56,784 nucleotides of DNA from Prevotella sp. GTDB lineage: Bacteria > Bacteroidota > Bacteroidia > Bacteroidales > Bacteroidaceae. Position numbers and translations under genes: made by a program. The notes beneath the pieces are model-generated. The model saw only the letters and a program-made list of their open reading frames with translations, did not search any database and was not told the origin of the DNA. Position 1 is the first letter of the stretch. Each line of letters opens with the position of its first letter. The stretch covers positions 1 through 56,784 of the forward strand of contig JAFZRU010000003.1 in NCBI GenBank assembly GCA_017619755.1, read 5' to 3'. Below, piece by piece: positions 2,707-22,933 of the stretch.

Positions 2707-5700
2707 TATTTGCTGATGTATTTCTTTCCGTTGCGGATGTAGATGCCACGCTCCGGCTTGCCGGGCAACTCGCGACCGTCGAGGTCGTAATAACGCTCCG
2801 TGCCGTCGGTGTCGATGGTGCGGATGGTGTCGATGCCGTCGGGGTCCTCGATGTCGTCGAGAAGTTCCATGGAGAGGCTGTTGGCCCCCACCCCGCCGTT
2901 CTGCAACAAGTAGGTGCGCATGGCGGGGATGTTGGCGTTCTCATATCCCTCCGCTTTCTTCACCAAGTGCCACTTGTTGTCGGAGGCCTGGAGGATGTAG
3001 GCGTACAACTCCGCAGCCTTCTTGTAGTCGATGGTCTGCATGGTGCCGCGCATGGAGTAGCCCGGCACGTTGATTTGGTTGTTTGCGGTTTGGGAGATGG
3101 CCGATTGGGTGTTGGGGATTTCCCTCTTCCTGCCGACGCCGAGGTCTGCTGTCTGACCGGACACCACGACGAGGTAGGGCGTGAGGGTCTCCATCTTGCT
3201 GGGCTCCTGGAGGAAGGTGAGCGTACCGCCGCTTCTTCCCATGAGTTTGTACACCTTCGCGCCGGGCGGTACGGGCAGGTCGTATGGCAGACAGACGGTG
3301 TACTTGCTCTCCTCCTGACCCTTACGCGGCTCAAGCCGGCGCTCGTTGACGACGCTTCCCGCCGTGAAGGAGTATGGCACACAGTAGTCCTTGTCCACCA
3401 GACGGAAGGTCTCTGCGGAGAGCGAGGTTCCATTGGCGACGATGATATTCACGCCCTTGGCCGGGCCATATTCCTGGGGCAGATAGACGAGCGTCTGCAG
3501 GCTGTCGATGCCGAGTCGAGCGAAGCTCCTGGTCTTGATGTCGTCCACCAGCATGGTGGAGTCGCACATCAGCATGTCCACGTAGCGCAACCCCGGAGCC
3601 TTGGCGAAGACGCTGTCCTCAATGACCCTCAAGGTCACGGGCAGTGCCACCTTCTCCAACAGTGTCAGTGGTTGCATGTCGCCTGCGCGAAGGGAGTCGA
3701 TGGCGCTGAATCCCAAGTACGAGAGATCTTTCACATCCTCGTGTCCCTTGCTCCATCCCTTGATGTTATAGACACGCGTGAGGTCGTCCTTCGTGGCGGC
3801 GGCATGGCTGGCAAAATAGCGGAACGAGGCATCGTCGTCGAACTCCCCTTTCGAGATGTTGTTGGTGCGCTGCCACGAACTGCCCGTGTAGGCGTCGTCG
3901 TAGAGATAGTCCTCGTAGGTGCTTGGCAGCACGTAGAAGGCGTCGAACGTCGGGTTGTAGTTGTTGCACAATCTGCGCCAGAGGGCGTTCTGCGTGCTGA
4001 TGTTCAACTTCTTCTTGGTGAGGATGTACAAGCGCGTGAGCATGGCGTCGTCGTCCAGGGCGTTCCAGTTGAAGTCCTCGCAGTCGTCGCCGATGACCAG
4101 TGTCTCGAGTCCCTCGCACTCCTGCAGGGCGCGCGCCTCCACTTTCTTGCAAGTCTTGGGCAGGATGAGGGTCTTCAGGTTGTATGCCTTGAGGAAGGCG
4201 TGATGGGGCATGACGTCGTCATCCAATTCTAAATAGTCATCTTTGTTTCCGTCGAACGCCGACGTCTGTGCGCGAAGCCTGACTATCGTCTTACGGATTT
4301 GTGCATCATAGAGGTCGATGTACTCCAGGTGTCCGCTGAAGTTGCGGGCATGGCTCCATGGGCAGTAGCCGGCCATGTAGCGCAGCACGTCGAGGTCGCC
4401 TCCCGAGATGGGGCCGATGATTTTCAGCCGTCGCACCTTGTTGTAGTCGCCCCTCAGGTTAGACACCCTTTTGCCTGAAATGCTGGCACTCCAGACCAAT
4501 GAGGCATCCTCCACGGTCATCTCCAGTCCCAAAGCCTCTGCCACCTTGTTTGGCTCTGTCACCACGATGGTGATGATATCCTCACCAGCGGAGTTTCCGT
4601 TGTAGGGGTTGATGTGGTCGGCATACTGTGCCCATTTCTCTCGATAGAGCTTGCACAGATTGTTCGGCACGAGGATGCGGAAGTCTTCGGGCAGCGACTC
4701 AAAGGCGTTCTGTGCCAACTGCGGCACGCTGTCGCAGCCGACAAAGATGGTCTCCAGACTAGTGCAGCCGCTGAAGGCTCCGGCATCGATGCTCTCGATG
4801 CTATAGGGCAGCTTGATGGACTCCAGTTTGTCCATGTCGCTAAAGGTGCTTTCCAAAGACTTCACGTTCTGGAAGAAGGAGAAGTCATCGAAATTCGTGA
4901 TGGCGGTGTTGCCATTGAAGATGTTTTCCACGCTTTCCAACTCCAAGTATTCCGTGGGGAAGAAGTGTCCGGCGTCTGCCAACGCCCACATCACCTCGTC
5001 CGACGAAAGCGGATGGAGGATGCTCTGCGCCTGACGTGTCAGTTTCGGGTCGCCGAGGTAGTCGCCCACCTTCGACGGAAGCGTCCACACCACCTGAATG
5101 GGGGCCTCCCACGGGTCGGGCCAGAAGGAGTCGTTCTTGGCGACGCCCTCGGTGAGCAGCACCAGTTCCTCTATGCCGTTGAGGTTTTGCAGCAGGTCGG
5201 TGTCGTATTCGGTGGTTTTCCGTCCCACGCAGACTTGCTTCAGGCCTTTGGCATCCTCAAAGACGTTCTCGCCGATGAAGGTCGCCGCCTGCGGGAAGAC
5301 GACGGTTTCGATGGCCGTGCAGTTCTCAAACAGGTAGTCGGGCACCTCGTTGTCGTTATCGATATACTCGTCGCTGAAGTTGCCGTTATAGCTGTTCTTC
5401 TTGTCTTTCTTGATTTGTGCGTCCCAGAGGTTGAGGTAGCGCAGGCAGCCGTCGGTGGGGTCGCTGTCGTAGGCGTCGGCGCCGGCCATGTGCCTGATGA
5501 CGGCGAGGTCTTCGCCATTGAGCGGGCCGATGACGGTGAGTGAATCGTACTTGGCATACGGCCCCTGGATGTAGCGCACCTTGTCGCTCTCCTTCAAGAG
5601 AGTGAGGCCGAGTTTGTCAGCCAACTGGCCCACGTCGGTCACGGTGACCACCTTGTTTATCCTATAGGTGTCGTCGCCCACGATGTATGGGGCGTAGTCA

Positions 5701-8700
5701 CTCCACGCTTTCTTGTAGTTGCTGACCTTGGCCGTGGGAACGTAGATTTTCAGGCCGTCGTGCTTGTGGAAGGCATTGGCACCGAGCGTGGCCGGCGTGT
5801 TGCTGCGCACCATGATGGTGTTTAGACTTGTACAACTGGCGAAAGCATTAGCACCGATACCGATGACTGCCTCTGGCAGTTCCATCTCCTGCAGGGCGCT
5901 ACACCCATTGAAGGCTTTCTCGCCGATGGTAGCGATGGTTGACGGCAGCACGATGTTGCCCAGCTTGGAGCAGCCTTCGAACCATGATTCTCCGACGTAT
6001 GTGAGACCTACGCTCTCGAAGTATTTGAAATCGGCGAAGGAATAAATTTTGTCCTTCTGCCCCGTGAACCTGCCGTCGAGCCAGGAGAAGCCGGCACCGG
6101 CGATGCGGGCGTAGTCGCAGTAGTCGTCCCATGTGGACTGGTCGGCGCCGGTGTTGGCCGGGTCGTAGTAGGCCATCTCCTTCAGTGCGGCCTTGACTCC
6201 CGGGTCGGACAATTTGATGACGCAGGGCATGAAGCGGTCCTTGTAGGCCACCCATGAACTGTCTGCCTCGAACCATGCCACTTGCTGCGGCATCATCTTG
6301 AGACGGGCGGCGGTGCCGTCGAACACCCCCTTGCCGATGGTGAGCATCTGCGGGGTGATGGGGTCGAGGTGGTTGAGCCCGTCGGTCACCATGTAGAGCA
6401 GGTCGAGGTCGGCCAGGTTGGTGCAATCCACGAAGGCGGAGTCGCCGATGTGTACCTGCAGGGGAGTGTAGGTGTCGCCGGTGAAGCCGAGGCCGTAGAG
6501 GTCGGTGAACGATACGGAGCGCAAGAGCTGGTTGCCCTTGAAGGCCCCCGGCATCACCTGGTCGAGCTGGTAGTTGTTGTACCTGCCGATGTCGTTGCAC
6601 AGTTTCACGGCTCCCTGGTGGCCCTTGATGAAGTCGTCGTCGGGGCCTGTCACGATGGTGTGCTCGATGAGGTGGCCGTTCACCTTGTTCTCCTTCTTGA
6701 TGGAGTTCATCTCGTAGGCGTAAGCATACTGGGCGCCATACTCGCAATATTCAGTCTTGGGCTTGGCACTCGTGTAGGTGAAATAGCGTTCCAATGGCGC
6801 CCACGAGGCGTTGTCGAGGAAGTCCTGCTTGCGCATGGGGTCGATGACGATGTGGAAGGTCAGGGAGTCGAGGCCGACGAAGACGCTGTCGCCGCCGAGG
6901 ATGAAGTTCTCCGGGCCGAGGGCGCGGGTGTGGTCCTCATCATCGGTCTGCAGGATGGTGCTGAACTCCGTCAAAGCGGTGCATCCCACGAAGGCGGAGT
7001 CGGGGATGGTGATGAGCATCGGCATGCCGGTGTCGCTGGCTTGATTGTGGATTTCGTGGAACTTGACGGTCTTGAGGTTCGTCTTGTTACGAAAGGCGTG
7101 GCGACCGAAGGTCATCGTGCGGTTGGACGTGTTGACATTGTTGTCGTTGTCGAAGCCAGCATAGACGACGGCGTCGGTGACATCGTCGCCCACCTCCTTG
7201 ACGTAGGTGTGATAGACAAGGTTCTTCTGGGGCGTGGTGATGACATAGCCTCCGCCCACAAGTCCCACCTGTTGGATGTTGGAGAGGATGTTCTCCCGCA
7301 TGCCTTTCTGAAGCAGGTCGCCGTTGTACGTTCCGCTGCCGCCCCAGCATTCCGCTGCAATCTTTCCAGATACGGATGTCGTTACCGCAGCGGCACCCAG
7401 AACCTTTCCTAAGAATTGAAAAGAAAGATATTTATCTGTGGCAGCTTTCGCTGCGGCTGTTCTTGCGATAAGTTTAGCTTGTTCGCCCATAAAAAATGAG
7501 TATGCAACATTTTTTATCTGGGTGAGTTTCGGGAGAATGAGATCATTGACAGATTTTAACGAGAACAAAATATGGAGATAGTTATCTACTGTCAATCCTT
7601 CAACCACTTGATCGCCCAAGAAAGTATTGGCGAGTTCGCGAACCGCCTCGGTCTGCCATACTCCATTGGCATTGACAAATCCTTGTGCTACGATTGTCAC
7701 AAAGACATCCTCGGGCAATTGTACAACCATGTCTCCTTGAAGGATGGCGGCCTGTTGGTTGAGCGCGGTAAGGACATTTCCCGTCAATTGCTGGATAGCC
7801 TGCACAGAATTATCTATTTCGCTTTCAAAGAGTGTTTGTACTTTAAGGCAGTTGTTGAAGTTGAGAAGGGCTTCGTTGTATGTAGTTTGGAACATATTCG
7901 TCCCCACTTCGACGGTCTCTTCGGCAACGTTCAATGAGCCAAATGAAGCAAGTATCATGGCCACTTCGATGGCGATGCGCGGAACCGTCCACCACGACAC
8001 GTCCTGGCTCACCACCTGCGAGGTCTGGAGGATGCCGCCGGGAGAGGTCATAAAACTGTAGGTGAGGCCTCCCTCGGTGAAGTCTTTCTTCTTGCCGGTA
8101 GGCTCGAAATCGACAGGCTCTATATATCCTGCATAAAGCTGCCAGTTGGGGTCGTCCAAGAATTCCGGGTAGAGGTCGGGCGACACCAGGATTTTGAACC
8201 CTGTGGGTCCGAGCATGGCAGCCCTGAGCTCTTCCATGGTCATGCCATCGCTGTTTTCCACAAATGATCGTCCAAAGATGTTGTTGCCTGGAATGACATC
8301 CTTCGGCCCGAGGGTCTCCCAATGGTCATCGCCGTCCTGCACGTAGTAGAACATGCGCAGCTCCTTGAGGTTCTTGCAGTCTTGGAAGGCTCCGTTGGGG
8401 ATGACGAACTTCAGGTCGCTGTAGGAGTTCTCCGAGCGCCCGTTGGTCTGCCAGAACTCGATGTGTTTCACATGCTCGTTCCCGGAAATGGCGTTCCGGT
8501 CGAGGGTGATGGTCTTGTAGTTGTAGTAGGAGCCGGGGTCGTTGTAGATGCGCATGGTGCCACCCATGTCATCGATATCATCATTGTCAACCCCCACGAC
8601 GGCGGTGTAATAGACATTGCAGTTGTCCTTCGTTTCGAGGAGCGTGGCGGCACTGAAATCCCTATACATGGCGTTCCAGGGCCTGATGCGCGTCATCATG

Positions 8701-15428: not shown

Positions 15429-16301
15429 TCACTCACCGATGGCGATGACATACTCACTCATGAACGAGGCGCCGGGCATCAGGTGATTGATGAAAGGCTT
15501 GTCCTTAAACTCACCCTTGTATCCGCGAGGGTCGCCCACACCATACCAAGGTTCGAGGCAGACGAAGGGGGCGTTTTTCTGATAGGGACTCCAAAAAGCG
15601 ATGATGGGACACTTGTAGCTGAGACTCACAGCCACTTTTCCGTCGGGGTCGAGGAGTTCCACACAACTGGTTTGACTCTTGTGCACTTTCACGGAGTCGT
15701 GAGCGAAGAACTCATCATTGAAGCAGATGAGGCCATCCTGTGAGGCAATCTCTATCTCCTCCATCTCTACAGAGCCATCAATATGGCTTTTCAGTCCCTG
15801 CAGCCGTCCCCTGTTGTCCACGCGAAGCACGCCTTGCAAAGGTTGACCAGCCTCGCAACCAGGAGCATAGAAAGCTGGATGACCACCAATCTGGAAATGC
15901 ATCTCACGCTTGCCTGTATTCTCCACGTGCCAAACGACATGGATTTTGTTTCCATCAAGTCGGTAGCTCACCGCCAAATTGAAGGGGAAGGGATAGACCT
16001 TCAGGGTTTCCTCGCTTTCATGCAATGCGAAGACCACCTTGTTGTCCGACTGAGCTACAAGGGCAAATTCCGTGTCGCGAGCAAAACCATGACGCGGCAG
16101 ATGGTACTCTTGACCGTCAACGGTGTAGGTGTCGTTTTCCACGCTGCACACGATGGGGAAAAGGATGGGTGAATGGCGGGGCCAAAACTTCGGGTCGGCC
16201 TGCCAAAGATACTCACGACCATCGCTATCAACAATACTCTGGAGCTCGGCTCCCATTTCTGCGACCTTTATGGTCAGTTGTTCATTACTTAGTTCTACCA
16301 T
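15429..16301 (-). CDS. Aldose 1-epimerase family protein (LacX type)
   Basis: A 290-residue cytoplasmic protein of the galactose mutarotase superfamily, LacX branch. Visible signatures are MGAELQSI near the start, WPRHSPILFPIVC, LPRHGFARD (about 69-77) with the conserved histidine region, and IGGHPAFYAPG (about 142-152). It ends with CLEPWYGVGDP, typical of this branch. Likely activity is anomer interconversion of an aldose or related sugar; the natural substrate is unknown. The first 13 codons and the bases just upstream are duplicated at 17683-17724, on the far side of the ATPase gene, so the present start appears regenerated or copied. No promoter with a good -7 box is seen directly upstream. 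Confidence 0.9.
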   Translation of the reverse strand: MVELSNEQLTIKVAEMGAELQSIVDSDGREYLWQADPKFWPRHSPILFPIVCSVENDTYTVDGQEYHLPRHGFARDTEFALVAQSDNKVVFALHESEETLKVYPFPFNLAVSYRLDGNKIHVVWHVENTGKREMHFQIGGHPAFYAPGCEAGQPLQGVLRVDNRGRLQGLKSHIDGSVEMEEIEIASQDGLICFNDEFFAHDSVKVHKSQTSCVELLDPDGKVAVSLSYKCPIIAFWSPYQKNAPFVCLEPWYGVGDPRGYKGEFKDKPFINHLMPGASFMSEYVIAIGE

Positions 16302-16305
16302 GATA
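16264..16305. repeat. Direct repeat A, epimerase 5' end
   Basis: These 42 bp are identical to 17683-17724. They cover the epimerase start codon and its first 13 codons. Looser AT-rich similarity continues to about 16332, the ATPase stop codon, and to about 17749 in the other copy. Confidence 0.9.
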
Positions 16306-16331
16306 TTATTGATATAGTTGTTTATGAATGA

Positions 16332-17459
16332 TCAATACATTTCTCTTTTGAACCAAATTTGGAAGAGGGGGTCGGCGAGATGAAATCCCGATGCCGTCAG
16401 CTCGACAATTTCACGGTCTATAAGTGCCTTTTTGAGTTTCACCAAGTTGGAGCGGCTCCCTAAATCAAAGTGCTTTGTCACCTCACTTTTACCAAAGTCA
16501 TTGTGAAATCCTGCACAGATGGCACGGATGAAGTTGAGCTGATAAACGGTCAACGTGGCAGTCTGCTCCACAAAGAGTGGTGACACCTGAGCCAACGTTG
16601 CCTCCAACCCATCATTGAACGACTGCTCGGTCACCGATTTGTCGGTCATCGCCATAACATTCCACGCCAGCTGCTGCACGTATGCGGAATAGTTGTCCAC
16701 CGTTGTGCAAATACGCCTTGCCATTTCCTCTGAGACCAATTTTCCTGCCTTCTCAAACCTTTCGACAATGAATAGCACCCACTTATCCGTAGGTATTTTC
16801 TTGAGGAAAAACATATCTCCGAATTGATAGAAAGGCATCTTTCTACTATAGAACAAGTTGCTCATCAGATGCTGTTTGCTGCCGAAGAGACAATAAGATA
16901 CTTTCCGATGGTGCTGCCACACACTTCTCATGGTCCTTTGCAAATTCAATGAGTTTTGCATCTCTCCGATTTGTTGAAACTCATCGATGCATACCACCAT
17001 TCTGATTCCTCTTTTCTCAGCAATTCTCTCTGGCAAATTGAGAATCTCCTCCGGCGTGTTCGATTTAGGGTCTATCCCTAATGATAAGGAGAAATCCGTA
17101 TTCGGAATAGGACTGTAAATGATTTTTGGAGTGACACTCATCAAAAACTCCTTAGCAGTCTCCATCATCTTTTCAATTTTGGTTGATGTCGCACGAATGA
17201 TGGCGGATGCAAATTTCTCATAAAATTCATACTCCGAACGGCAATTGTAGATGTCCACATACACAATCCTCAATTCCTCGCTCTCAGCAAGACCCTTCAC
17301 CCTCCTTACCAAAGAAGTCTTTCCCATACGCCGTGGTGAAATCAAGATGGAGTTCACGCCATTCTCAAAATTCAGGCGCAGACGCTGCGTCTCCATCTCC
17401 CTATCGGTGAAATGCTCGCCATCCACCGACATTCCAAAAACAAATGGCTTGTTTGTCAT
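16332..17459 (-). CDS. AAA-family ATPase of the archaeal/Bacteroidales ATP-binding type
   Basis: A 375-residue STAND/archaeal-ATPase-like protein. Walker A is SPRRMGKTSL (about 40-49), Walker B is MVVCIDEFQQI (about 153-163), and a C-terminal winged-helix-like part includes KSEVTKHFDLGSRSNLVKLKKALID. Such ATPases (PF01637-like) are numerous in Bacteroidales and their function is unknown. Base composition is visibly more AT-rich than in its neighbours. The gene sits inside a segment bracketed by a 42-bp direct repeat taken from the adjacent epimerase gene. Two identical 37-bp palindromic arrays lie upstream, one over its -33 region. This suggests an acquired, self-regulated module; that is inference. 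Confidence 0.85.
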   Translation of the reverse strand: MTNKPFVFGMSVDGEHFTDREMETQRLRLNFENGVNSILISPRRMGKTSLVRRVKGLAESEELRIVYVDIYNCRSEYEFYEKFASAIIRATSTKIEKMMETAKEFLMSVTPKIIYSPIPNTDFSLSLGIDPKSNTPEEILNLPERIAEKRGIRMVVCIDEFQQIGEMQNSLNLQRTMRSVWQHHRKVSYCLFGSKQHLMSNLFYSRKMPFYQFGDMFFLKKIPTDKWVLFIVERFEKAGKLVSEEMARRICTTVDNYSAYVQQLAWNVMAMTDKSVTEQSFNDGLEATLAQVSPLFVEQTATLTVYQLNFIRAICAGFHNDFGKSEVTKHFDLGSRSNLVKLKKALIDREIVELTASGFHLADPLFQIWFKREMY

Positions 17460-17485
17460 ACTGATACAATTTGGTAATGCGGAAG

Positions 17486-17518
17486 CAAAGTTAGCAAATT
17501 ATTCATTATGTTCACCAA
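17486..17518 (-). promoter_or_regulatory. Promoter of the ATPase gene overlapping a palindromic array
   Basis: On the minus strand, TAACTTTG (17493-17486) is an exact -7 box. TTG (17518-17516) lies 22 nt upstream and falls inside a CACCAAGTGGTG element, so a protein bound there should block the promoter. Confidence 0.5.
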
Positions 17519-17544
17519 GTGGTGTAACACCAAGTGGTGAACAT
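17508..17544. repeat. Palindromic array P1 (two CACCAAGTGGTG units)
   Basis: A 37-bp array: ATGTT, CACCAAGTGGTG, TAA, CACCAAGTGGTG, AACAT. The outer ten bases on each side are inverted repeats, and each 12-mer is itself nearly palindromic. The same 37 bp recur exactly 90 bp away. Confidence 0.9.
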
Positions 17545-17597
17545 TATAATTATTTAACAAAATCATTGGTATAAATGGAAATAAACATCCCAAAAAA

Positions 17598-17634
17598 ATG
17601 TTCACCAAGTGGTGTAACACCAAGTGGTGAACAT
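17598..17634. repeat. Palindromic array P2, identical to P1
   Basis: All 37 bp are identical to 17508-17544. The DNA between the two arrays is AT-rich and holds no gene. Confidence 0.9.
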
Positions 17635-17636
17635 TT

Positions 17637-17720
17637 TCAGCTCACTTTCTCAGCTCCTCCCGCCTTATACCAGTAACCCGCAACCTTTATGGTCAGTTGT
17701 TCATTACTTAGTTCTACCAT
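17637..17720 (-). pseudogene. Chimeric remnant: epimerase start fused to module end
   Basis: On the minus strand an ATG opens a 27-codon frame: MVELSNEQLTIKVA, identical to the epimerase N-terminus, followed by GYWYKAGGAEKVS and a stop. This is what remains if the ATPase segment was placed inside the epimerase gene at about codon 14. Whether the peptide is made is unknown. Confidence 0.75.
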
Positions 17721-17724
17721 GATA
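17683..17724. repeat. Direct repeat B, duplicated epimerase 5' end
   Basis: Identical over 42 bp to 16264-16305. It lies between the ATPase upstream region and the CotH gene, where the epimerase start would be expected if the ATPase segment were absent. Confidence 0.9.
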
Positions 17725-17771: not shown

Positions 17772-20700
17772 TCATCTCTTAATAAACTTACGTCCGTTCT
17801 TGATGTATATGCCCGGCGGCAAGTTGCCTCCAACGGCCTGGCCTTGCAAGTTGTAGATTTGCGAGGAGCCTTGGCGCAGGGTCACCAACTCGCGTATGTC
17901 GTTCACGGCTGGTTGGGCGACAGGAATGGAGTAACTGCCCATTATGTTCGCCTTTCCCATAGTAGGCACGTTCATCGTGAAGACGTCGCGACAGCCGTCG
18001 GGATAGCGGCCTACAGTCTCGTCACCCTTCATCGCAGCATAGATGACATGGTCACTCCAACTCTCATCAGCTGCCGTCAACAGAATCTCGCCACCATCGG
18101 CGTCCAACTTGAACGAGGCGTGCAGTTGCGACAGCGGTTCCAACTTGTCGCACCATATCGTAAGGAATCCATGTGCGGGGATGACGGTCGGGATGTCGTT
18201 TGTCTGGCCAATTTGATACTTCCTCGGATTCTCCGGGTCGTTGCTCAGGTACATACCAACAATGTCGATGTCGGCACTTGAGGTGTTATAAAGTTCCACC
18301 CAGTCGTTGTGATTGAAAAACTCATTGACATAGATGTCGTTGGCTGCACTCACCTCATTGATACAGACAGGCGTGATGCCTTCCGCTCTGCGCTCTGCCT
18401 CCGTCAGAGGTGTGAAGCAGGCAGTCAGCGCGACATTGCTTTCCCCGGACAGGTCGATGACGGACTCTGTCAAGATTTCGTCGTCGGTATTGGCACCAAC
18501 AGTCGTGAGAAGTTCGCAATCCCAATAGAGGTCGCTTGATGTGTAACTGGTGTTGTGCACCTCGACAGCGACGACATTGCTGCCTTTCTTGAAGAGCAAC
18601 GGATTCAGGTCGAGCGTGCCTTCCAAGGGGATTTCGGGGGCGTAAGTGGAAGAGAAGGTGTCATAGTTGACATTGCCTTGTCGCATATTGACACGACCAG
18701 CCTCCTGACCGTTGACCCAGATGATGCAGCCATCGTCAACCTGGTAGTTGAGTTGGAAAAGGTCGCTTGACTTAGGGTCTGCATCGATAGTGAATGTCTT
18801 GCGGAAATAGGTGGTGGGGTGCTTTCGGTCAGGGTTGTCACCGTAACTGACGGTGGTCCTCACGCCACTCATATTGTAGCCCAAGGGTGCCGCTCCCGAT
18901 TTCCACGATGCCTGGTTGAAACCCGGAGACTGCCATCCCGCAGCGGCTTCTCCGGAATCATAGTACCTCCATGTGGCTTTGTAGTCAAACACATGGACGA
19001 AATGGCCTGAAGACTTGCGCCAGCCTGTGAAGGTGTAGCCGGCCGGGGCTTTGGCTTCCAAACAGACGGGGGCGAACAGCTGGCCATTGAAATCCGCATA
19101 AGGCACGTCGATGTTGTTGATGAAGATGTTGGCACCCTCGGTGTCGGCGTCCACCTGAAGGCTCACCTTCTTCACGTTGCTGAGTTGCAAAGGTCTATAC
19201 TGCTGCAGCTGGCCCATCATTGTTTCCAAGCGATTCGCCAACTTGCCCTTGATATTGTTGGCGGACCCATCGGGACTCCTGCCATCGAGAGCCAGCATGG
19301 GACGCATGGCATCGGCCAATTCATCGACGATGGCCGTGGCGCGAGTCTTCTCGAAGACGCTGCCTCCCAAGATGCAAAACGTGTCGATGAACTTTTTGCG
19401 GTATTCGTCGTGCTGGAGCAAGTTCCTGAACAGGCGCACCATGGCGATGTTCCCGAACTGGTCAAGCTGCGAGAAGTTGCGCCCCCAGGCGTTGAAGGGC
19501 TGGTCCAGGTCGAAAAGGATGAAACGGAAACGTCCGTCATTCTGGCTGCGGTATGCCTTGACGTTGTTGTCGGGCCAGTCATCATTGCCGAGGAAAACCT
19601 CGGCGACAATGTAGTTGGTGAACTCGTCGATGTCGAGCAACGTCTTCACCTCGTCATAGACACCTTCGGCATTGACATTCTCACTTATCTCGCAGAGGTG
19701 ACGATAGACTTCATCGGTGCCGTTCCTGAACGTTCCGTTCTCAAACATATCGATTTCCTCGTCATCGTAGCCGTAGTTGGAATACACATACTTGTCGTTG
19801 TTTGGCTCACGCAAGTTCAGCACACCCTTGAACCTTCCGTTGATGTACTCCACCACTTGTACCGTGCTCTGCACGTCGAGGTCGATGCCCGAGCGCTGGA
19901 CGATGGTTGTAAGTGCAGGATCCATGAAGCGGCAGTTGGAGTCGTTGCCACCATTCCGCACCAGCAATGCCTTACTGCGGATGTTGGGTTTCTGCGGGAA
20001 GAAGGCATAGTCCAAGTGGTTCTGTCCGTCAAACAACTTGCTTGACTTCAGTTTCATCGAACGAGGATTGCTCATCCGCGACCATCCTCCGGAGACACTG
20101 ATGTTGACATCTTGGTTGAAGAGCATGCCATCGGTAGGACTGATGTAACTGAAGTTGACGGATCTGTCCCATGGCTGGTTCCAGTTGACTTCATCGTCAC
20201 GTCCGTTGCCGCTGATGCCGTTGGTGCCTTTCACATCAATGCCCCACATCGGGTCGGTGAAATAACGCTCGTCGCCGACGATGGAAATCACAGGTATGGA
20301 GTATTCGTTGTTAGTCTGTATATAACTGCGGGTGACAGGCACACTGGGAAGGTAGCCGTCGCGGAAAAGGCGGAACACATAGTTCGTCGTTTGAGTGACA
20401 GTGAACAGTCCGTCCTTGCTTTGCCGACTGGCGTTGTTGCCGGTACTTGCATCCGTGTATTCCTCCCACACGATATCGTCGAAATAGAAGTTGTTCTCCA
20501 TCGCACTTTCGTTCAGGTTGAAGGCAATGGTCTGCATGCCCGATGAACCGGCCTGAGTATCGGAAATGGTTCCTTCGAAGTCGATTTGTTGCCACTCCGT
20601 AGTGATGTTGTAGCCTCCATCAAGCATCTGCCAATGGATGTAATCGCCGGGGGTGTGGTGTGACTGCACTGAAACATGGCAGGGCTTGTCTGCCCGCATT

Positions 20701-21563
20701 TTCATGCGGAAGCGGTATCGGTCGCCGGCGTTCCAAAGGTGGTCGGGGGTATAGACAAAAAACTGGGAGTCCCAGTCGTTCGCCGGGTTTTCAATGGCAT
20801 GCACCATGGCGCCACGTGAGCCATTGAAACCAACACCGTCGGTGATGCGGCCGACGTCGCCACCGCCGTCGCCATCGCGGCAGACGAAGCAAGAGGCGTC
20901 GCTGCCTTCGCAGTCGCTATTACGCACCCAGTTCTTCCAACTTGGTTGAGACGTGTCATCATCGGCGACTTGCGAAGACTCTGGCACACTGCCGTCGGTG
21001 GTGTACATAAGCGTGGTGCCTTCCGGGATTTCGACCTTGACGGTGAGGGGACCGTTGAGAATCCGACTGCCTTCACTGACAACGGGTGAAGCGAGCCGTT
21101 TGGTGGCAAAGACCGACGTGGCATTAGTGGCACCGGGTGTTGCGTCTGCCGTCCAACCCCAGTTGTCGCCACCATCGATGGTGCGCGCCCAAGAGGTGCG
21201 ACTCAAAGCCTTGGGATACTCTACGCTGGTGACGAGTTGTCCGTCACGGTCGCTCAGGCAGATGACACCGCCGTCGCTGTCGAGCTTGAAGGGAGCCTGG
21301 TCGCTCCTTATCTCATCGGAGCCCAACCACACGACAAGGAAACCCTTGGCAGGAACGGCACCTATGCCGGAGGGAAGTTTCCAACGCTTCAAGTTGTAGG
21401 CGTCATCGCTCAAATACATGCCCGAAAGATTGACCGGCTGCTCTGTAGGATTGTAGAGCTCTATCCAACTGTCAAAGTTGTAGGCCGGACTCATCACCGA
21501 ACCGACGTTTGAGGCCATCAGTTCGTTGATGACGATGACGACACTGAGAATGCTTGATAACAT
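17772..21563 (-). CDS. CotH-family protein with two lamin-tail domains
   Basis: A 1263-residue protein starting at MLSSILSVVIVINELMASN. The first lamin-tail domain begins at INELMASN (about 12-115). A chitobiase-C-terminal-like strand (GTTLMYTTDGSVP) follows, then a carbohydrate-binding-like region, then a CotH kinase domain (about 420-780) with YSIPVISIVGDERYF, KALLVRNGGNDSN and ILFDLDQPFN. A second lamin-tail domain starts near INEVSAANDIYVNEF (about 1067). The C-terminus is GIYIKNGRKFIKR, the tail shared by other secreted proteins here. CotH domains are atypical kinases in spores; in Bacteroidota their targets are unknown. The hydrophobic start is shorter than a normal signal peptide, so the start or export route is uncertain. 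Confidence 0.85.
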   Translation of the reverse strand: MLSSILSVVIVINELMASNVGSVMSPAYNFDSWIELYNPTEQPVNLSGMYLSDDAYNLKRWKLPSGIGAVPAKGFLVVWLGSDEIRSDQAPFKLDSDGGVICLSDRDGQLVTSVEYPKALSRTSWARTIDGGDNWGWTADATPGATNATSVFATKRLASPVVSEGSRILNGPLTVKVEIPEGTTLMYTTDGSVPESSQVADDDTSQPSWKNWVRNSDCEGSDASCFVCRDGDGGGDVGRITDGVGFNGSRGAMVHAIENPANDWDSQFFVYTPDHLWNAGDRYRFRMKMRADKPCHVSVQSHHTPGDYIHWQMLDGGYNITTEWQQIDFEGTISDTQAGSSGMQTIAFNLNESAMENNFYFDDIVWEEYTDASTGNNASRQSKDGLFTVTQTTNYVFRLFRDGYLPSVPVTRSYIQTNNEYSIPVISIVGDERYFTDPMWGIDVKGTNGISGNGRDDEVNWNQPWDRSVNFSYISPTDGMLFNQDVNISVSGGWSRMSNPRSMKLKSSKLFDGQNHLDYAFFPQKPNIRSKALLVRNGGNDSNCRFMDPALTTIVQRSGIDLDVQSTVQVVEYINGRFKGVLNLREPNNDKYVYSNYGYDDEEIDMFENGTFRNGTDEVYRHLCEISENVNAEGVYDEVKTLLDIDEFTNYIVAEVFLGNDDWPDNNVKAYRSQNDGRFRFILFDLDQPFNAWGRNFSQLDQFGNIAMVRLFRNLLQHDEYRKKFIDTFCILGGSVFEKTRATAIVDELADAMRPMLALDGRSPDGSANNIKGKLANRLETMMGQLQQYRPLQLSNVKKVSLQVDADTEGANIFINNIDVPYADFNGQLFAPVCLEAKAPAGYTFTGWRKSSGHFVHVFDYKATWRYYDSGEAAAGWQSPGFNQASWKSGAAPLGYNMSGVRTTVSYGDNPDRKHPTTYFRKTFTIDADPKSSDLFQLNYQVDDGCIIWVNGQEAGRVNMRQGNVNYDTFSSTYAPEIPLEGTLDLNPLLFKKGSNVVAVEVHNTSYTSSDLYWDCELLTTVGANTDDEILTESVIDLSGESNVALTACFTPLTEAERRAEGITPVCINEVSAANDIYVNEFFNHNDWVELYNTSSADIDIVGMYLSNDPENPRKYQIGQTNDIPTVIPAHGFLTIWCDKLEPLSQLHASFKLDADGGEILLTAADESWSDHVIYAAMKGDETVGRYPDGCRDVFTMNVPTMGKANIMGSYSIPVAQPAVNDIRELVTLRQGSSQIYNLQGQAVGGNLPPGIYIKNGRKFIKR

Positions 21564-21619
21564 GGTGGTGGATTGGGATATGGTTTGTAATGAAAATGCG
21601 AAAATACGTCTTTTATGCC

Positions 21620-22933
21620 TTATACCAATAATTGCCGGGACTTCATCTCCATGTACTTGTTGATGGCATTGACAGTGAGATGCTCCGGCGATGTGAGCAG
21701 CGAGTGTATGCCGTTTTGCATGAGGGTGCTGGCAATGAGACGTCGCTCGTAGAGGAGCTTCTCCCCCACCACGTGCTGGTAGAGTTCCTCCATCGAGTGC
21801 GAGGGCGTTCGTGTGAAGTCCTCCAACTCCACATCCTCGAAGAAGACGACGAGGAGGCGGTGGTGGCGGTTGAAGAGCCTGAGGTATGGCAGTTGCCTTT
21901 CGAGCGTTTTGTAGTCGGTGAAATTGGTATATAGCATCATGAAACTCCTCTTCCCCACCAGTCGGTTGACATTGGGGCATAACATGGAGTAGTCGGCCTC
22001 CCCGAACGAGGTTTGTTGGTTGTAGAGGCTTTCGAGGATGAGTTGCATCTGCGTGGGCCTTCTGTCCGCCGGAACGAAGGTGTCGAATTGGTCGGCGAAC
22101 GTCACCAGTCCAGCCTTGTCCTGCCTGTTGATGGCCACATAGGAAAGGACAAGGGCGGCGTTGATGGCATGGTCGAGGAGCGTCATCCCGTTGAACGACT
22201 GCTGCATGAGCCTCCCCTTGTCGATGACGGAGAATATCTGCTGCGAGCGCTCGTCCTGGTAACTGTTGACCATGAGGTGACTTCTCCTCGCCGTGGCCTT
22301 CCAGTTGATGGTGCGGTAGTCGTCGCCCTGCACATAGTCCCTCACCTGTTCGAACTCCGTGTTGTTGCCGGCCCGCCTGACACGTTTGAGTCCCACCTCG
22401 GCGAAATTGTTGGAGACGGCCATCAGTTCATATTTTCTCAGCATGAGGAACGATGGATACACCTTCACCTCCACGGGAAGGGCCGTCCGTATGCGCCTTT
22501 GCGCCAATCCCATCCTGGTGGAGACGAAGAGCAAGACTTTCCCGAAGGCATACACCCCTCGCTCCAAGGGCCTTAACGAGTAGGTGAGCGTCTTTCCCTC
22601 CTTGGCCTTCAGCCTCGTTTTCAAGGAGAAGTCCCGTTGCTGCAACTGCGGGGGCAGTTCGTCCACCACCTCCATGTCCAAACCTATGGGCGAGCGGTTG
22701 GCCACGACAATGCGCACCTCGTTGTCGTCGCCCAAGGAGAAGCGTGCGGCGCACTCCCTCTTCGCCACCATCCTCGCGGCAATGTATAGCAGCAGGGCGT
22801 CCACCGTCAGGGCGGCCGCAAGGGCGACAAAGAGCCATTGCCCTACCACGAGCAGCGGCTCATACAGCACGCCGGCGGCCATCACGAAGGCCACCAGTCC
22901 CATCGCCCAATAGAATCTTCTCGTGAGGAACAT
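21620..22933 (-). CDS. DUF58 domain protein
   Basis: A 437-residue protein with two N-terminal membrane segments (about 7-22 and 26-52) and a large cytoplasmic or periplasmic part containing the DUF58 core: EQVRDYVQGDDYRTINWKAT (about 195-214), followed by a von Willebrand A-like region with VIDKGRLMQ. DUF58 proteins pair with MoxR ATPases in nearly all bacteria; the MoxR gene lies 14 nt upstream in the same direction. The pair is thought to act as a chaperone-like system for assembly or activation of protein complexes, but the targets in Bacteroidales are not established. It is the last gene of the cluster that starts with the SpoIIM gene. Confidence 0.9.
   Translation of the reverse strand: MFLTRRFYWAMGLVAFVMAAGVLYEPLLVVGQWLFVALAAALTVDALLLYIAARMVAKRECAARFSLGDDNEVRIVVANRSPIGLDMEVVDELPPQLQQRDFSLKTRLKAKEGKTLTYSLRPLERGVYAFGKVLLFVSTRMGLAQRRIRTALPVEVKVYPSFLMLRKYELMAVSNNFAEVGLKRVRRAGNNTEFEQVRDYVQGDDYRTINWKATARRSHLMVNSYQDERSQQIFSVIDKGRLMQQSFNGMTLLDHAINAALVLSYVAINRQDKAGLVTFADQFDTFVPADRRPTQMQLILESLYNQQTSFGEADYSMLCPNVNRLVGKRSFMMLYTNFTDYKTLERQLPYLRLFNRHHRLLVVFFEDVELEDFTRTPSHSMEELYQHVVGEKLLYERRLIASTLMQNGIHSLLTSPEHLTVNAINKYMEMKSRQLLV

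Follow-up and report, generated by a model that had tools for sequence, protein, structure and literature searches.

The window analysed here, a 56,784-nt stretch of Prevotella DNA, raises the question of how an AAA+ ATPase gene came to lie between two copies of the start of its neighbour, a gene encoding an aldose 1-epimerase family protein (Table 1). The two copies, each 45 nt long, form a direct repeat in which 44 positions are identical, 42 of them contiguous, with a start-to-start distance of 1,419 nt. Past the repeat, the 31 nt that reach the ATPase stop codon match at 74% without gaps. The original prediction, made from the letters of this DNA, had described an identical 42-bp repeat, a live start on the epimerase side, a far copy beyond the ATPase gene and a weaker similarity extending to the ATPase stop; each of these descriptions was upheld, with the repeat slightly longer than proposed and the far copy ending within codon 14. 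The 42-mer occurs at these two sites only, and a search allowing up to three mismatches found it nowhere else in the 3.7-Mb, 67-contig assembly. Shuffled-flank controls (n = 5) gave best scores of 7–10, against 42 for the observed repeat.

Table 1. Features of the epimerase-ATPase locus, numbered by position in the window.
Feature	Position	Strand	Basis
Target gene, aldose 1-epimerase family protein, 290 aa	15429..16301	-	
Live repeat copy, start of the epimerase gene	16261..16305	-	Repeat alignment and orthologue starts
Leader running from the ATPase stop to the epimerase start, with about 74% similarity to the dead-copy leader	16306..16335	-	
AAA+ ATPase, 375 aa, Pfam ATPase_2, predicted SSO1545/Orc-Cdc6-like fold	16332..17459	-	
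Putative operator 1, a pair of 12-bp palindromes with a 15-bp period, lying close upstream of the ATPase	17508..17545	.	Sequence
Putative operator 2, identical to operator 1, 90 bp further out	17598..17635	.	Sequence
44 nt separating the outer operator from the dead copy, probably the left end of the insert	17636..17679	.	
Dead repeat copy, epimerase start broken off in codon 14	17680..17724	-	Sequence, repeat alignment and genome-wide search
Upstream neighbour, LTD/CotH-domain protein	17772..21980	-	

The copy adjoining the ATPase stop is the true start of the epimerase gene, as all 17 epimerase orthologues (82–92% protein identity) align with it from their own start codons. The nearest epimerase loci belong to Prevotellaceae metagenome assemblies from ruminants, and on this basis the host is probably a rumen Prevotella. 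As predicted, the segment is AT-rich, with 43.6 %GC against 52.1 %GC in the epimerase gene, 54.0 %GC in the upstream gene and 54.4 %GC in the window as a whole. Between the copies, the ATPase is the sole coding-strand open reading frame of at least 80 aa; it is overlapped by a 107-aa antisense frame, and no transposase, integrase or terminal inverted repeats are present there, which agrees with the original prediction for the first two.

Alignment of orthologous loci from related genomes, the check suggested with the prediction, yielded part of what had been hoped for. The ATPase is absent from all 17 epimerase orthologues, and no second start copy occurs in the 16 whose upstream sequence runs to 829 nt or more (20–24 mismatches of 45); the remaining orthologue, L232 (loci are designated by L numbers), has only 212 nt upstream and is uninformative on this point. 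The repeat therefore corresponds to a target sequence that is single-copy where the insert is absent (16/16 informative orthologues), and ATPase-free relatives carrying both copies, which would have spoken against an insertion, were not found among them. The genes upstream of the epimerase orthologues differ from that in the window, however, so that these orthologues are not true empty alleles, and neither two concatenated-flank searches of 398 genomes each nor an epimerase contig scan revealed a relative that keeps both neighbours at any locus. In relatives of the CotH gene (L317, L319 and L320) the match ends at the CotH stop codon. The nearest approach to an empty allele is the L199 site, where two genomes keep the upstream gene and a toxin-antitoxin-like pair replaces the ATPase. 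In L316 and L318, the gene that comes before the L199 ATPase is immediately followed, at about 1880–2420, by a toxin-antitoxin-like pair.

The ATPase scores 39.2 bits against the ATPase_2 profile (PF01637; curated cut-off 33.2). It has no NCBIfam match, and a PDB sequence search returned nothing below E 0.22. Scans with PHROGs gave weak matches only, and the best PADLOC hit (E 0.0072) is confined to residues 25–59, with no convincing match to an anti-phage defence system. Pfam, NCBIfam and PADLOC scans revealed no nuclease or recombinase domain. An AlphaFold2 model built with 35 relatives as input (mean pLDDT 90.3, pTM 0.83) was used for a fold search, in which the archaeal structures 2qen and 2fna ranked best, followed by Orc/Cdc6 proteins, with RuvB and the Tn7 protein TnsC lower. 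The archaeal AAA+ ATPases SSO1545 (2fna) and PABY2304 (2qen) align with the greater part of the protein (query TM 0.72 and 0.73, respectively) at a sequence identity of only 15–17%. The Orc1/Cdc6 initiators (1w5t, 2qby and 1fnn) match through the AAA+ fold with query TM 0.46–0.56, which makes a DNA-binding role plausible for the modelled protein.

Just upstream of the ATPase lie two identical 38-nt palindromic sequences, putative operators that the original prediction did not describe. They occur on one side of the ATPase only, and no further copy with up to three mismatches was found elsewhere in the genome. Palindromes scoring at least 8 within 130 nt upstream are present in 138 of 171 ATPases of the family, compared with 4/171 in-gene, 30/169 downstream and 11/167 far-upstream control stretches. 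The usual build of two 12-bp palindromes at a 15-bp period is common across the family, and the sequence varies by ATPase subfamily. The ATPase probably binds its own operators and regulates through them. At L135 and L209, palindromic operators are found on the downstream side of the ATPase as well.

Homologues of the ATPase are widespread in the genus, occurring in 90 of 120 sampled genomes (E ≤ 0.001), with close homologues (E ≤ 1e-50) in 114 of 398 genomes; they are found on 26 of 72,556 plasmids and in 2 of 50,697 phage records. The genome under study holds one close copy and two further, remote paralogues. Genomes with ATPase copies of 92–98% DNA identity carry them at unrelated sites, and their glutamate dehydrogenase genes are mostly 76–84% alike. 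In 11 of 13 hand-chosen pairs, ATPase identity lies 7–18 points above glutamate dehydrogenase identity, the difference being only 1–3 points in L221/L223 and L027/L069. Among 30 pairs of ATPase loci with at least 90% DNA identity, 13, falling into six groups, share nothing outside positions -116 to +10 of the open reading frame, and 8 of these 13 are included in the glutamate dehydrogenase comparison. The other 17 pairs share the same site, one common flank or a longer match, extending to +40 in L067/L075 and to +253 in L028/L070. The unit is thus sharply delimited, beginning a little outside the operator and ending at the stop codon. Together, the sharp-ended pairs and the excess of ATPase over glutamate dehydrogenase identity argue that the ATPase unit is foreign and that its family is horizontally mobile, moving between genomes. 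The open-licence literature searched contained nothing on mobility of this ATPase family. In two genomes (L067 and L075), ATPases that are 95% identical lie in opposite orientation to the same neighbour gene, with hairpins flanking both sides, as after an inversion.

The frequency of flanking repeats was surveyed across the family, scoring 700 nt upstream and 500 nt downstream of each gene. The survey comprised 171 open reading frames of at least 330 aa out of 174 found (L089 being among the three dropped, and L225 and L226 substituting for L002 and L003), of which five lacked flanks, leaving 144 close and 22 remote ATPases. Repeats scoring at least 25 were detected in 16/144 close ATPases versus 6/466 other open reading frames (Fisher 9e-7), with N counted as a mismatch and with the caveat that the loci are related, so that such frequency tests are not independent. 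In an earlier scan, the top match, L171, was a run of N. One of the six positives among other open reading frames is the short ATPase L089, and 2 of the 22 remote ATPases also reach the threshold. Convincing copies of a neighbour account for 9 of the 16 positives: starts or leaders in L001, L187 and L206, a gene end in L199, and hairpins or intergenic pieces in L014, L015, L066, L067 and L070. At L070, a match to the final codons of the neighbour was considered and rejected, since translation places the repeat past the stop codon, as a hairpin. The other positives reflect extra operator copies (L135, L209), a tandem array (L012) or other repeats farther out (L028, L162, L171, L195).

The flanking repeats differ between loci in sequence and in length, ranging from 20 to 205 nt in relatives. 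These lengths, like the 45 nt in the window, greatly exceed the target duplications that transposons usually make. At L089 the repeat consists of the last codons, the 3' end, of the neighbouring gene; nine relatives that lack an ATPase at this place each have this target end once, and in 8 of the 9 it is matched by the far copy. The expectation that other ATPases would be bracketed by copies of their neighbours was thus realized at loci in other genomes but not for the two remote paralogues in the same genome, neither of which has flanking repeats. Unflanked relatives, which had been named as evidence against the proposal, are also the majority among close ATPases, 128 of 144 having no repeat of score 25 or more.

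A constant attachment site was considered from the leader ATATGNCACAAGATATGA at L206 and L213, and rejected because this leader is the repeated start of giant secreted proteins. It was found in 5 of 8 genomes searched, with several copies around both loci. In L352 the leader ATATGNCACAAGATATGA lies at 8267, 7541, 6213 and 3191, and in L353 at 8239, 9513 and 10931, in the order leader, small gene, leader, ATPase, leader, giant gene; L353 has additional open reading frames that by eye resemble KilA-N and RelE.

Flanking repeats are not confined to the ATPases. Within the same genus, they were found at 5/26 YafQ-like toxin-antitoxin genes and 4/30 PDDEXK_2 (Rpn-like) genes, each family exceeding other open reading frames and their combined rate not differing from that of the ATPases (p 0.35). 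Toxin-antitoxin pairs likewise end at the stop codon, while Rpn-like pairs are less sharp. Since these control families are flanked as often, a link specific to the ATPase is weakened, and the simplest reading suggested by these comparisons would be a general process acting on small gene units.

The likely history, in our view, is that a unit of one gene, acquired horizontally, was placed into codon 14 of the epimerase gene through insertion with long target duplication. The entering unit would have comprised the operators, a promoter, the AAA+ ATPase and its stop codon. The 45-nt repeat would represent the duplicated target, with the copy at the ATPase stop serving as the working start and the other persisting as a dead remnant. 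Insertion and duplication would have been a single event, in a process that may be host-driven and indifferent to its cargo. Of the prediction that a module interrupted this gene and restored its target by duplication, the foreign and mobile unit, the interruption at codon 14 and the intact start on the other side are borne out, whereas an empty site with both neighbours was not found. The original prediction had called the mechanism unknown; in fact a named precedent exists, even if the joining step can be put forward only conditionally. The passages cited here describe insertion with long target duplication in restriction-modification genes, where the duplications are on the order of 100 bp (Nobusato et al., 2000, as cited in PMC1643837, PMC3031569 and PMC3874152). 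The feature in common with that precedent, as these passages present it, is a small transposase-free unit inside long, variable direct target duplications, and the locus is assigned to this class by its mode of insertion, not by its cargo. The cargo consists of restriction-modification genes in the precedent as cited, whereas here it is an ATPase with operators and, at other loci, toxin-antitoxin and Rpn-like genes. According to the same passages the precedent was found by comparing two Helicobacter pylori strains, whereas the Prevotella case was inferred without a strain-level empty site. On this reading, a mode of insertion already known has a new cargo in the ATPase.

For the joining of the ends, the leading candidate, put forward tentatively, is homologous pairing at one end and homology-free joining at the other. 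One end of the incoming DNA would pair with target sequence that it partly matches, and the other would be joined without homology to the sister copy slightly further along, so that the intervening stretch would be doubled. Homology-facilitated illegitimate recombination, with one homologous and one non-homologous junction, is reported in the cited passages as shown experimentally in transformable bacteria (PMC2884548, PMC5361080), and as described there it would explain copies that differ more on one side. In 12 hand-chosen loci, differing columns amount to 96/489 on the ATPase-stop side versus 43/496 on the far side, a bias that local alignment may inflate. It is carried mainly by L187, L001, L213 and L014, and is absent in L066, L089, L211 and L168; in the L187 copies the signal-peptide half differs and the remainder is nearly identical. 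The comparison of the copies yielded no donor sequence for the homologous side. Given this asymmetry between the two sides, one-sided pairing appears to fit better than a uniform target duplication, and we regard this as no more than suggestive.

The ATPase is more likely a passenger than a motor. ATPase-specific transposition was attractive given the sharp ends, and was demoted to a rival explanation when toxin-antitoxin and Rpn-like repeats proved as frequent. It would make the unit a self-mobile element whose AAA+ protein binds end-marking palindromic operators and drives insertion by widely staggered target cleavage. This is in line with the sharp limits of the unit, a little beyond the operator on one side and at the stop codon on the other, with upstream palindromes of subfamily-specific sequence in most ATPases and with an ORC/Cdc6-like fold that has RuvB and TnsC among its weaker matches. 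We nevertheless judge it unlikely, given the lack of a nuclease or recombinase domain in the profile scans, the wide range of repeat lengths, the single close copy in its own genome, and the control cargoes, which are flanked equally often and, for toxin-antitoxin pairs, share the end at the stop codon. Quite improbable, too, is the broader proposal that these ATPases are self-mobile one-gene elements or trans-acting movers of other small units, which would act as ORC/TnsC-like, operator-guided and transposase-free agents making 20–200 bp duplications.

The repeated leader copies around L206 and L213 lend some colour to another order of events, in which the epimerase start was duplicated first and the ATPase landed between the copies later. 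The single copy in the informative ATPase-free orthologues argues against this, and a separate origin would need to have happened repeatedly, at numerous unrelated targets, and to have left the cargo between the copies; we see little chance that it applies. An integrase acting in trans on the repeat as its attachment core would also leave direct repeats around the unit and a restored target gene, yet repeat sequence and length vary by locus and no integrase lies between the copies, making this very unlikely. An assembly error or a chance repeat is hardly credible: the genome is fragmented (67 contigs, 85.88% complete), but an identity of 44/45 stands far from the shuffled scores, and a similar anatomy is seen at L067 in the single-contig genome G045.

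If insertion with long target duplication is indeed the cause, it would be a general entry route for small units into Prevotella chromosomes that leaves neighbours intact, would not be peculiar to restriction-modification genes and would account for foreign genes without an integrase or transposase. The set of recent insertions could then be used to work out the joining reaction, and an ATPase family with diversified palindromic operators, itself uncharacterised, would be among the commonest passengers.

Several further loci show repeats around small genes. In the window itself, a minus-strand open reading frame at 1535–2089 has a hairpin-like repeat copy on each side (score 28). In L255, a DUF1648 gene at 5436–6001 lies between a decayed epimerase-start-like piece and an intact start. 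The piece is nearer to the start in the window (87.5% over 32 nt) and matches its own start at 26/45 positions; as a parallel to the ATPase locus it was set aside as weak. In L235 (4775–5623) and L236 (2670–3518 and 1334–2233), direct repeats reaching 114 nt in length surround genes just upstream of the epimerase, and one of these repeat-flanked genes is a PDDEXK_2 (Rpn-like) gene.
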